Below, piece by piece: positions 5,576-33,589 of a stretch of 33,668 nt of DNA (position 1 is the first letter of the stretch; the number at the start of each line of letters is the position of its first letter). The notes under the pieces are model-generated. The model ran no database searches. It had not been told where the DNA came from and saw only the letters and a list, made by a program, of their open reading frames with translations. A program made the translations under genes and the position numbers. The stretch is from Deltaproteobacteria bacterium. Lineage in GTDB: Bacteria > Desulfobacterota > Dissulfuribacteria > Dissulfuribacterales > UBA5754. The stretch spans positions 1 to 33,668 of the forward strand of contig JAINCN010000007.1 in the NCBI GenBank assembly GCA_036574075.1, read 5' to 3'.

Positions 5576-5609
5576 CCCATGCCCCAAAAAACCTTTCCCA
5601 GATGATGTG

Positions 5610-5651
5610 GAGCAAGGCGCCCATGGATGGGCGCCTGCTCGCGGATTCAGG
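5610..5651. terminator. Strong hairpin between convergent genes, related to the intergenic repeat family
   Basis: The stem GGCGCCCAT (5616-5624) pairs perfectly with ATGGGCGCC (5627-5635). It is extended by an A-T pair and by GAGC/GCTC with a single bulge. There is no T-tract, but the position between the convergent 3' ends at 5575 and 5647 suits a bidirectional terminator. AGGCGCCCATGGATGGG and the following CGGATTCAGG also occur in the 176-bp repeat at 17719-17894, so this is probably an internally deleted copy of that element. Confidence 0.55.
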
Positions 5652-8040
5652 ACACAAGGGCCGCGTCCAAGACCTCGTCTATGGTGTCCACCGGGATGAA
5701 ACGGAGCGCGCCCCGCACGTCTTCCGGCAGGTCGTCCAGGTCCCTTTCATTTCTCCTGGGCAGGATAACGGTCGAAAGCCCTCCACGGTGCGCTGCGAGG
5801 ACCTTCATCTTGACGCCTCCTACAGGAAGGACCCTGCCCCGCAGGGTGATCTCCCCGGTCATCCCCACGGTGTAGCGCACCGGGCGACCGGACAGGAGGC
5901 TTGCAATGGCGCAGACCATGGCCACCCCTGCTGACGGGCCGTCCTTGGGAATGGCGCCCGCAGGTACGTGGACATGGATGTCCATCCCCTCGAAGACGTC
6001 AGGATCGATCCCCAGTTCCGCCGCCTTGGATCGCACATAACTGTAGGCGATCTGGGCACTTTCCCGCATGACGTCCCCGAGTTGGCCGGTGAGGGTGAGC
6101 CCGCCCTTTCCCTTCATTCGGGTGGCCTCGATGAAAAGGATGTCCCCGCCGGTAGCGGTCACCGCGAGCCCGGTCGAGATGCCTGGGATCTCCATCTTTT
6201 CCGAAACCTCTGAAAAGAAACGCTCCCTTTTGAGAAATTCCCGCACCTTTTCCGGAGTCACCACCATGACCCCAGACGGGCCTCCTTCTGCGATACGCAC
6301 CGCCGTCTTGCGGCAGATCGAACCGATCTGGCGCTCCAGGTCCCTGACCCCGGACTCGCGCGTGTAGTCCTGGATGATCTTTCGAATGGCATCGTCCTGA
6401 AACTCGATCTCACCGGGATCGAGACCGTTGGCACAGACTTGGCGGGGGACAAGATAGGTCCTGGCTATGTGGAGTTTCTCGTGCTCCGTGTATCCGTCGA
6501 GCTGTATGATCTCCATCCGGTCCTTCAGGGGCTCGGGAATGGTCTCGAGCTGGTTTGCGGTCGCGATGAAGATGACGTCGCTCAGGTCGAAATCCACATC
6601 GAGGTAGTGGTCCCGAAAGGCGTGATTCTGGGCCGGGTCCAGGACCTCGAGGAGGGCGCTCGAAGGATCTCCCCGCCAGTCTTTACCCACCTTGTCCACC
6701 TCATCGAGCATGAAGACCGGGTTTCTTGTCCCGGCCCGCTTGATGGCCTGGATGATGCGGCCTGGCATGGCCCCGATGTAAGTCCGTCGGTGTCCCCGGA
6801 TCTCGGCCTCGTCCCGCATGCCCCCAAGGCTCATTCTGGTGAATTTCCTTTCGAGCGCCCGGGCGATGCCCTGCCCGAGGCTCGTCTTTCCCACCCCTGG
6901 AGGGCCTACGAAACAGAGGATCGCGCCCATGGCCCCCTCTTGCTTGGCTGCAGTTTTCCGGTCGGCCCCTCGATCGGCTATGAGCTTTCTCACAGCGAGG
7001 TATTCGATGATCCGATCCTTCACCTCGTCGAGATCATAGTGATCCTCGTCCAAGACGGCACGGGCATGGGCGATATCCAGCCGTTCGCGGTCTACGACGT
7101 TCCAGGGGAGCTCGACGAGCCAGTCGAGATAGGTCTTGATGACAGAATACTCTGCTGCCTGGGGGGAAAGCCCCTCGAGGCGCCTGAGTTCTCTCTCCGC
7201 CTCCTTTCGGGCCTCCTCCGGGAGTCCGGCCTCGTCGAGCTTGCGGCGATACTCGTCGGCTACGTCCTGACCTTCCTCGTATTCTCCGAGTTCCTTGCGA
7301 ATGGCCTTGAGCTGCTGACGGAGAAAATACTCCCTCTGGGCCTTGTCCATCTCCTCCCTGGCCTCGCTCTCGATCTTCTGTTCAAGGGTGAGGACCTCCC
7401 GCTCCCTGCCAAGATGGGAGACGAGCATGCGGAGTTTCTCCTTGATGGAGTCCGCCTCAAGGATCATCTGCCCTTCGGAGACATCGAGCCTGGCATTCGA
7501 TGCAACGAGATAGGCAAGAAACCTGGGGTCCCTCACCTTGTCGAGAAAGGCCCCGAATTCCCTGGGGACATTGGGCAGGAGGGACATCACCTCGCGGGCA
7601 AGATCGACAAGGCTCCTCTTCAGGGCGTCCAGCTCCACGCCTTCCTCCACTGTGTCAGGGGCAAGGGTGATCCGCCCTCTGAGGTACGGAGAGGGATCGA
7701 GCCAGGACTCGACTCGAAAGCGCTCGATCCCCTGGACGACCACCTGAAGGGCGTTATCCGGGGTCCGGGCGACCCGCTGGATGAGCGCCACGGTTCCGGT
7801 CTCGTAGACCTGTCCGGCAATGGGCTCCTGGATCTCGGGGTCCTTCATGGCCACGAGCCCGATGAGTCTGTCCTTTTCGAGGGCATCCTCGATGAGCCGG
7901 ACTGATCGGGCGATGCCTATGGCAAGGGGAAGGACAGTGAAGGGATAGGCCACCGTGTTTCGAAGTGGAAGTATGGGAAGCTCGGACGGGATGTCCGTGA
8001 GTTTGATGGATTCTTCTGGCTGCATGAAATGGGCGGTCAT
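5647..8040 (-). CDS. lon: ATP-dependent protease Lon (La)
   Basis: Lon is a cytoplasmic AAA+ serine protease that removes damaged and regulatory proteins. The 797-residue product has the N-terminal LON substrate-binding domain (ELPILPLRNTVAYPF, about residues 20-210) and a coiled-coil linker. Its AAA+ module has Walker A GPPGVGKT (379-386), Walker B PVFMLDEVDK and the ATANQLETIP sensor. The protease domain carries the catalytic serine in PKDGPSAGVAM (Ser703) and the lysine in GGVKMK (Lys746). Length is normal. The ATG at 8040 has GAGGAG eleven bases upstream; an internal ATG five codons later is possible. It stands alone on the minus strand, and a strong hairpin follows its stop. A CCCCCCATAAT stretch at 8059-8069 (minus strand) slightly resembles a heat-shock -10 element, too weak to assign. 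Confidence 0.96.
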   Translation of the reverse strand: MTAHFMQPEESIKLTDIPSELPILPLRNTVAYPFTVLPLAIGIARSVRLIEDALEKDRLIGLVAMKDPEIQEPIAGQVYETGTVALIQRVARTPDNALQVVVQGIERFRVESWLDPSPYLRGRITLAPDTVEEGVELDALKRSLVDLAREVMSLLPNVPREFGAFLDKVRDPRFLAYLVASNARLDVSEGQMILEADSIKEKLRMLVSHLGREREVLTLEQKIESEAREEMDKAQREYFLRQQLKAIRKELGEYEEGQDVADEYRRKLDEAGLPEEARKEAERELRRLEGLSPQAAEYSVIKTYLDWLVELPWNVVDRERLDIAHARAVLDEDHYDLDEVKDRIIEYLAVRKLIADRGADRKTAAKQEGAMGAILCFVGPPGVGKTSLGQGIARALERKFTRMSLGGMRDEAEIRGHRRTYIGAMPGRIIQAIKRAGTRNPVFMLDEVDKVGKDWRGDPSSALLEVLDPAQNHAFRDHYLDVDFDLSDVIFIATANQLETIPEPLKDRMEIIQLDGYTEHEKLHIARTYLVPRQVCANGLDPGEIEFQDDAIRKIIQDYTRESGVRDLERQIGSICRKTAVRIAEGGPSGVMVVTPEKVREFLKRERFFSEVSEKMEIPGISTGLAVTATGGDILFIEATRMKGKGGLTLTGQLGDVMRESAQIAYSYVRSKAAELGIDPDVFEGMDIHVHVPAGAIPKDGPSAGVAMVCAIASLLSGRPVRYTVGMTGEITLRGRVLPVGGVKMKVLAAHRGGLSTVILPRRNERDLDDLPEDVRGALRFIPVDTIDEVLDAALVS

Positions 8041-12862: not shown

Positions 12863-12880
12863 GAATGCCCCCTTTCCCAA

Positions 12881-13021
12881 TTTCACAGCATAAGCCTACG
12901 GCCGGGGTATTTGTGGATGGAGGCGCCCATGGACGGGGCTCGAACGGCAAATCCGCCCCCATGGATGGGGGCTATTTGCCGCACGAAACAAATACACCGG
13001 CCGTAGGCTCACGGATTCAGG
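12881..13021 (+). repeat. Palindromic intergenic repeat, copy 1
   Basis: This is a near-full copy of the repeat family best seen at 17719-17894. It begins with TTTCACAGCATAAGCCTACG, contains the paired CCTACGGCCGGGGTATTTGT and ACAAATACACCGGCCGTAGG arms, and ends with CTCACGGATTCAGG (13008-13021). The left outer arm CCTGAATCCGTGAG is missing: the copy starts at the kinase start region. It fills the first part of the 541-bp gap between the divergent kinase and hcp genes. Confidence 0.8.
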
Positions 13022-13082: not shown

Positions 13083-13175
13083 TGCGGTTACTGCGGTTAC
13101 TATATAGATGACCAGCCAGCATGCAATACCTTTGTAAAATTTTTTTACACTACGTCGAACATTCCAATTCGACGT
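13083..13175. other. Tandem 9-mer and 8-bp palindrome in the kinase-hcp gap
   Basis: TGCGGTTAC is directly repeated (13083-13091 and 13092-13100). Further on, ACGTCGAA (13152-13159) is the exact inverted partner of TTCGACGT (13168-13175), with an eight-base spacer. Either could be an operator, but no regulator can be named. Confidence 0.3.
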
Positions 13176-13243
13176 CATTCCAGCACATGCCGGAATCCCG
13201 TGTTTTCAATATGCCATAGATACCGGATCAGGTCCGGCATGAC
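13174..13243. repeat. Small inverted-repeat element with GTCAT/ATGAC ends
   Basis: The 70-bp stretch is bounded by GTCATTCC and GGCATGAC, which match as inverted repeats at seven of eight positions. Inside are two further imperfect palindromes, ATTCCAGCACATGCCGGAAT and CCGGATCAGGTCCGG. Such GTCATTCC...GGAATGAC elements are a common type of dispersed intergenic repeat in proteobacteria. Only one copy is seen here. Confidence 0.4.
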
Positions 13244-13304
13244 GAGTCCGGCACTTTTTGCGAGGTCATCAAATATGGGCCTCCTGCAACAGATGCCCAG
13301 ACCA

Positions 13305-13317
13305 TCACGGATTCAGG
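13305..13317 (+). repeat. Solo right end of the palindromic repeat family
   Basis: TCACGGATTCAGG matches 13 of the 14 bases of the right terminus of the repeat family, without the remainder of an element. It lies 15 bp upstream of the candidate FNR-type site of hcp and is probably a remnant. Confidence 0.4.
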
Positions 13318-17646: not shown

Positions 17647-17718
17647 ATGTTTCAGGATGTCCTGTCGTGTTTGAGAGATCATAGACCGTTTTTGTGAAGG
17701 GTTTCGGTTTCATTTCCT

Positions 17719-17894
17719 CCTGAATCCGTGAGATATGCACTCAACCTTTCGATTTCACAGCATAAGCCTACGGCCGGGGTATTTGTGGATGGAGGCGCCC
17801 ATGGATGGGGCTCGAATGGCAAATCCGCCCCCATGGACAGGAGGCTATTTGCCGCACGAAACAAATACCCCGGGCGTAGGCTCACGGATTCAGG
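17719..17894 (+). repeat. Palindromic intergenic repeat, copy 2 (best complete copy, 176 bp)
   Basis: The outer ends are perfect 14-bp inverted repeats: CCTGAATCCGTGAG (17719-17732) and CTCACGGATTCAGG (17881-17894). Nested inside, AGCCTACGGCCGGGGTATTTGT (17765-17786) matches the inverse of 17861-17882 at 21 of 22 positions, and GGCAAAT (17818-17824) pairs with ATTTGCC (17847-17853). A 32-base asymmetric insert (17733-17764) sits on the left. No transposase is encoded and no clear target duplication is seen. It could be a MITE-like non-autonomous element or a structured palindromic unit. With the hsp20 terminator it fills the 377-bp gap up to 17967; nothing else is evident there. Confidence 0.85.
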
Positions 17895-20155: not shown

Positions 20156-20220
20156 CCTGAATCCGTGAGATATGCACTTAACCTTTCGATTTCACAGGAT
20201 AAGCCGACGGACCACGGATT
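20156..20220 (+). repeat. Palindromic intergenic repeat, internally deleted copy
   Basis: The left end CCTGAATCCGTGAG (20156-20169) and the next stretch to TTTCACAG agree with copy 2 except for one base. After GATAAGCCGACGG the sequence jumps to CACGGATT, part of the right end. The core hairpins are gone. It lies between rtcB and the phoB-like gene. Confidence 0.65.
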
Positions 20221-30545: not shown

Positions 30546-30587
30546 AACCACAGAGTTTTTGCTGATAGCTAACAACTGATAACTGAC
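30546..30587. repeat. Short low-complexity repeat upstream of leuB
   Basis: AACCACAGAG is followed by GTTTTTGCTGATAGCT and two ACTGATAACTGAC-like units. The 13-mer GTTTTTGCTGATA is identical to that at 148-160, and ACCACAGAG is the inverse of CTCTGTGGT at about 20293-20301. It ends just before the leuB ribosome site (AAGGAG). Confidence 0.55.
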
Positions 30588-33277: not shown

Positions 33278-33428
33278 CCTGAATCCGTGAGCCAACTGCC
33301 GGGGTATTTGTTTCGTGCGGCAAACAGCCTCCTGTCCATAGGGGCGGATTTGCCGCTCGAGCCCTGTCCATGGGCGCCTCACCCCACAAATAACCCGCCC
33401 GTAGGCTTATGCCGTGAAATTGAAAGGT
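33278..33428 (-). repeat. Palindromic intergenic repeat, copy 3 (reverse orientation)
   Basis: Read on the minus strand this matches copies 1 and 2 from TTTCACGGCATAAGCCTACG to CTCACGGATTCAGG (33291-33278), with scattered differences. The left outer arm is missing: the copy ends at the ACCTTTCAATTTCAC stretch, and the next element starts at once. It occupies the start of the 464-bp gene-free end of the window (33205-33668). Confidence 0.8.
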
Positions 33429-33589
33429 AGGGAGGGGGTGCGGGGCAGTGCCTCATCGGCCGGATAACCGCTTTGGCAATGCAACTGCCTTTTCGGCCGT
33501 GGACGCGAGGTGCCATGCAAGGCCCTGCGGCCGCCTGCCCCGGCTTTCTGGATCCGGCCTGATTCAGCACTACCCCGCACCCCCTCCCT
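33429..33589. repeat. 161-bp element with 23-bp terminal inverted repeats
   Basis: AGGGAGGGGGTGCGGGGCAG starts a 23-base arm (33429-33451) that is the inverse of 33567-33589 at 22 of 23 positions. The arms extend imperfectly inward through GGCCGGAT (left) and ATCCGGCC (right). Nothing in the core looks coding. It directly abuts copy 3 of the other repeat family. Confidence 0.65.

Follow-up and report, generated by a model that had tools for sequence, protein, structure and literature searches.

The palindromic repeat at positions 17719-17894 of the window (the whole stretch of 33,668 nucleotides analyzed here) is, with a probability that we put at roughly 93% from sequence comparisons, a copy of a non-autonomous MITE that would be moved in trans by a transposase of the IS1380 family. 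The unit is 174-178 bp long, carries perfect 14-bp ends and holds no protein gene; it is thus shorter than 600 bp and free of a transposase gene, and has inverted ends, target duplications and dispersed copies with empty counterparts, as expected of a MITE. A MITE of IS1380 type is an ordinary kind of thing; the unusual part is a common 14-bp end joined, across phyla, to unrelated interiors whose folds are conserved. The features of the window are the following.

17719-17894, plus strand: full-length MITE copy, both ends intact
17719-17732, plus strand: left terminal inverted repeat of this copy, CCTGAATCCGTGAG
17733-17765, plus strand: left "bulge" of about 33 nt, unpaired in the folds and on one side only
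17765-17786, plus strand: left arm of the inner stem (covarying helix 2), from inverted repeat and covariation
17788-17815, plus strand: central hairpin A, GGCGCCCATGGATGGGGCTC, from fold and covariation
17819-17857, plus strand: central hairpin B, GGCAAATCCGCCCCCATGGACAGGAGGCTATTTGCC, from fold and covariation
17861-17882, plus strand: right arm of the inner stem, from inverted repeat and covariation
17881-17894, plus strand: right terminal inverted repeat of this copy, CTCACGGATTCAGG
12880-13021, plus strand: MITE copy without left end, adjoining a PAS histidine-kinase gene at its 5' end
33278-33428, minus strand: MITE copy with another repeat in place of its outer left part
20156-20220 (right limit approximate), plus strand: left-end fragment of the MITE
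5606-5651, plus strand: deleted MITE copy, central hairpin fused to the right end
13304-13317, plus strand: solo right end with one mismatch; at only 13 bp it could be due to chance
17673-17718, minus strand: relic matching positions 71-116, left neighbour of the full-length copy

The original prediction had placed six sites of the family in the window and described the 17719-17894 copy as having nested inverted arms between perfect 14-bp ends; all six sites are present and the copy is built as described. The end motif, allowing up to two mismatches, occurs seven times in the window against 0.4 expected. The two other long copies, said to lack the left arm, do both lack the left end, but this is not a trait of the family: among 120 sampled copies, 68 have both ends, 23 miss the left, 19 miss the right and 10 have neither. 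The left arm of the 33278-33428 copy ends exactly where a different palindromic repeat of 161 bp (33429-33589) starts. This second repeat, with ends AGGGAGGGGGTGCGGGG / CCCCGCACCCCCTCCCT, is unrelated to the MITE and has about 14 near-full copies, the present one included, at 93-100% identity; these frequently lie at the ends of contigs, paired with related inverted copies in the vicinity. In the deleted copy at 5606-5651, the terminal CCTGA provides the TGA stop of lon (5647-8040, minus strand); with the MITE end (5638-5651) used as stop, this protease may have had its C-terminus reset by the insertion.

Evidence for transposition comes from the flanking sequences. The 17719-17894 copy itself lies between TTCCT and CACTT, with no target duplication. 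Among the 65 sampled copies with clean ends, an exact 5-bp duplication was found at 27 and an exact 6-bp duplication at nine (together 36/65), against a chance level of about 0.2 exact 5-bp matches obtained by mixing flanks between copies; in a sister species (G001), duplications flank 6 of 14 copies. Comparison of filled and empty sites gave three pairs showing clean insertion with a 5-bp duplication, two of them against the sister species, in which the GAGAT and AGGAC sites that carry a MITE in the host are empty. The third lies in an IS1380 relic on contig 39, which reads ACAACAG-GAGAA-[MITE]-GAGAA where the empty homologue on contig 37 reads ACAACAG-GAGAA. Between chimeric arms and loss of the target duplication there was only a weak trend (p=0.07).

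A transposase with matching ends was found in the IS1380 family, as intact genes in other genomes. In a Verrucomicrobia MAG (G060), a 1676-bp IS has both exact 14-bp ends, a TCAAT duplication and an intact transposase scoring 294.8 bits with NF033539 (cut-off 180), and the same MAG carries its own 162-bp element with the same 14-bp ends. A complete, single-contig genome of the host's phylum (G374) contains two intact IS1380 copies with ends CCTGAATCCGTGAG / CCTGAATCAGTGAG, one exact and the other matching the MITE end at 13/14 positions, a TGGAA duplication at one of the two, and one MITE with the same ends. In both the sister species and a Syntrophobacteraceae MAG (G070), IS1380 N-termini lie directly inside an exact end. 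Profile search of the host assembly returned IS1380 relics and no intact IS1380 gene; these relics were found with NF033539, and PF13701 alone missed most of them. Relics C37 and C39 have the end CTCACGGATCCAGG, which matches the MITE end at 13/14 positions. Two others, C47 and C63, were rejected as partners on account of their different ends (CCTCGACGTTTTGTG). A pair of ends 1.6 kb apart (L054) was likewise discarded, as it encloses no transposase. Relics with the different ends (CCTCGACGTTTTGTG) represent another, decayed IS1380 lineage in the host (L174, 930-2040; L169, 1216-1820).

Target-duplication lengths agree as well, being 5 bp for IS1380 (TCAAT, TGGAA) and 5, in some cases 6, for the MITE. 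IS1247, a member of the IS1380 family, is listed with 1672 bp and DR 5 (PMC3281130, Table 2). The IS1380-family elements (NF033539; IS1247 is an example) thus resemble the MITE in their 5-bp duplication and, for those found here, in the same 14-bp ends, whereas the MITE has no transposase gene, measures 174-178 bp and has an interior that is unrelated beyond 14-27 bp. Since only these first 14-27 bp are common to IS and MITE, descent by internal deletion is unsupported. This lowers the probability of an IS1380 deletion derivative, not that of movement by IS1380, as mobilization in trans does not require an IS-derived interior. Altogether, the designation as a MITE in the original prediction is backed by target duplications and empty sites, and by the identification of a transposase family; that family is well supported as the source of the motor, an IS1380-type transposase is likely the motor itself, and such an enzyme would have moved the host copies. 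A likely motor can be named for a repeat family that fills about 2% of a 2-Mb genome. In the model that we favor, the transposase would recognize the 14-bp ends CCTGAATCCGTGAG and move the 174-178-bp unit in trans, inserting it at targets that are mostly intergenic and of which 5 bp, in some cases 6, are duplicated. The gene-less interior folds as a long stem that includes a three-way junction, and in source elements changes on both arms have preserved this fold.

The same evidence bears on a different reading, in which a RAYT (HUH) transposase would have moved palindromes of the REPIN/REP type; this would fit a palindromic, intergenic repeat with hundreds of copies, and ERIC and REPIN-type repeats do share high copy number, intergenic location and palindromic structure with the MITE. 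What sets the MITE apart from them is a DDE-transposase family with matching ends. The staggered-cut target duplications contradict this reading, and the 14-bp terminal inverted repeats and the presence of the same ends on IS1380 (DDE) elements count against it too; we consider it extremely unlikely. To our knowledge, such duplications are not expected of RAYT-REPINs. Bacterial MITEs such as Chunjie of Geobacter uraniireducens, of 235 bp according to a review (PMC10969869), are likewise short and non-coding, with inverted ends, target duplications, intergenic location and a stem-loop fold. The review text consulted does not mention IS1380. No IS1380-type MITE was found in the literature searched, a partial coverage without ISfinder, and searching the literature for the end sequences as exact strings gave unrelated matches only.

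The family is not confined to a few copies. The 1.99-Mb genome contains 405 end motifs with up to one mismatch, whereas the reversed control gave none. Counting on 834 kb (the window plus further stretches, 42% of the genome) gave 120 copies that together span 17.1 kb (2.0% of the DNA sampled), one copy per 6.9 kb, from which about 286 are extrapolated for the whole genome. The sister species holds 21 copies in 249 kb and was, besides the host itself, the sole match in a search by sequence of 60 genomes. The suggestion of a recent spread found no support. Full sampled copies diverge by 10.9% on average and the closest pair by 1.7%, which gives no sign of a recent burst, with the caveat that identical copies may be lost in short-read assemblies. 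One truncated copy occupies the same place in host and sister species, so some insertions are older than the species split. The lack of an intact partner transposase in the host assembly also argues against recent spread and, as only IS1380 relics remain, amplification in the host has probably stopped.

We also considered that the repeat might be a host-domesticated structured element (an RNA hairpin, terminator or mRNA-stability element) kept for the neighbouring genes. Such a role would agree with a very stable fold maintained by paired changes and with the location of about 96% of the longer copies outside genes predicted by a crude gene caller. With the same crude gene calls, however, gaps between convergent genes hold 16 copies against 18.3 expected, an absence of excess, and orientation relative to tandem genes shows no preference (25 to 20). 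Furthermore, the element has no T-tract, Rfam covariance models gave no match at the gathering threshold or at E<=1, and the occupied sites differ between the sister species. We therefore regard a domesticated element as improbable; copies lying mostly outside genes, with neither convergent nor orientation bias, point to tolerated insertion of the MITE rather than to a function at gene ends.

The second suggestion of the original prediction, selection on a folded structure, is supported by covariation as regards maintenance of the fold, but selection is not separated from correction between the arms. Typical full copies fold as single strands at about -100 kcal/mol into an end stem, a one-sided 33-nt bulge, a 21-bp inner stem and a three-way junction with two hairpins. 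In the 68 full copies of the two species, 93.4% of cells are paired, against at most 46% with the partners slid, and changes on both sides number 78 compared with 27 in shuffled data, nearly all of them in the inner stem. Conservation is therefore not limited to the ends: the nested arms are conserved too. These results support the MITE fold being under constraint, which may be imposed by DNA transposition, by RNA or by arm-to-arm repair. In the last case, the paired changes would be products of recombination or template switching inside the inverted repeat, without selection for a folded molecule. This rival bears on the fold alone and agrees with the MITE explanation; we take it as a serious, though not our preferred, possibility. 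Of 82 cores, three carry the 33-nt bulge on the opposite side and one carries it on either side; such flipped isomers imply that the arms exchange, which keeps correction a rival to selection. Several paired changes (U-A to G-C, G-C to U-A) also lack a G-U intermediate. On the other hand, private changes of single copies comprise 47 broken pairs and 5 compensated ones, whereas the changes shared by subfamilies include 45 compensated cells. This contrast indicates that the fold was kept in the source lineages; it is also compatible with correction, as younger changes have had less time for it.

The 14-bp end is not restricted to the host's family. We scanned species genomes for both ends 130-160 bp apart (elements of 158-188 bp, bounds of our choosing) and obtained at least 120 stretches. 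The matches listed include Verrucomicrobia, Thiotrichaceae, Chromatiales, Thiosymbion, Burkholderiales, Desulfobulbus, Syntrophobacteraceae, Desulfuromonadales, Saprospiraceae and Aquificaceae, some of which may be mis-binned. Among the matches listed, at least 124 elements fall into 11 clusters whose interiors show no detectable similarity to one another, mostly of 159-165 bp within the 158-188-bp bounds; all 11 are palindromic and strongly folded (z of -5 to -13 against mononucleotide shuffles), and in the four largest the paired changes exceed every shuffle. The excess is clearest in the 62-sequence cluster, with 247 paired changes (shuffled mean 77, maximum 98), and the margin is small in the nine-member cluster, 4 against a shuffled maximum of 3. 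Such counts are inflated by relatedness, and the alignments that were scored also served to derive the structures. Judged by eye, the apex resembles CACC-N-GGTG in several clusters. Within the host's phylum, 6 of 395 genomes contain the end pair; searches of viral contigs for the exact-end pattern, and of plasmids and phages for the MITE element, gave no matches. It is tempting to speculate, and we do so tentatively, that there is a cross-phylum class of structured MITEs with IS1380-type ends in which the whole-length hairpin and not the sequence is conserved, unrelated interiors converging through compensatory change on a palindrome of ~160-176 bp whose folded DNA or RNA may aid transposition or protect the element. 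In Verrucomicrobia, in Gamma- and Betaproteobacteria and in deltaproteobacterial lineages, a single 14-bp end sequence serves elements whose hairpin interiors are unrelated. The tendency of mini-transposons to be long palindromes poses an old question; it becomes directly testable here by comparing arm-matched with arm-mismatched elements, since several independent families combine these ends with the same constraint on the fold.

Other repeats and relics were noted in the window. By eye, the contig starts within the C-terminus of an IS481-like transposase (NHQIPQKALGHITPVQALKKWQEMKPELF, positions 1-116), and 17673-17718 is a decayed piece of such a C-terminus. The stretch at 13140-13260, upstream of a prismane-family gene, contains short inverted pieces (ccggaatccc...ccggatcaggtccggcatgacg) and looks like another common dispersed repeat. 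Finally, intergenic repeats rich in TAGCTGA/TAACTGA lie at 148-193 and 30555-30586, and recall TAACTGA repeats that have been reported from Beggiatoaceae (PMC4679880).
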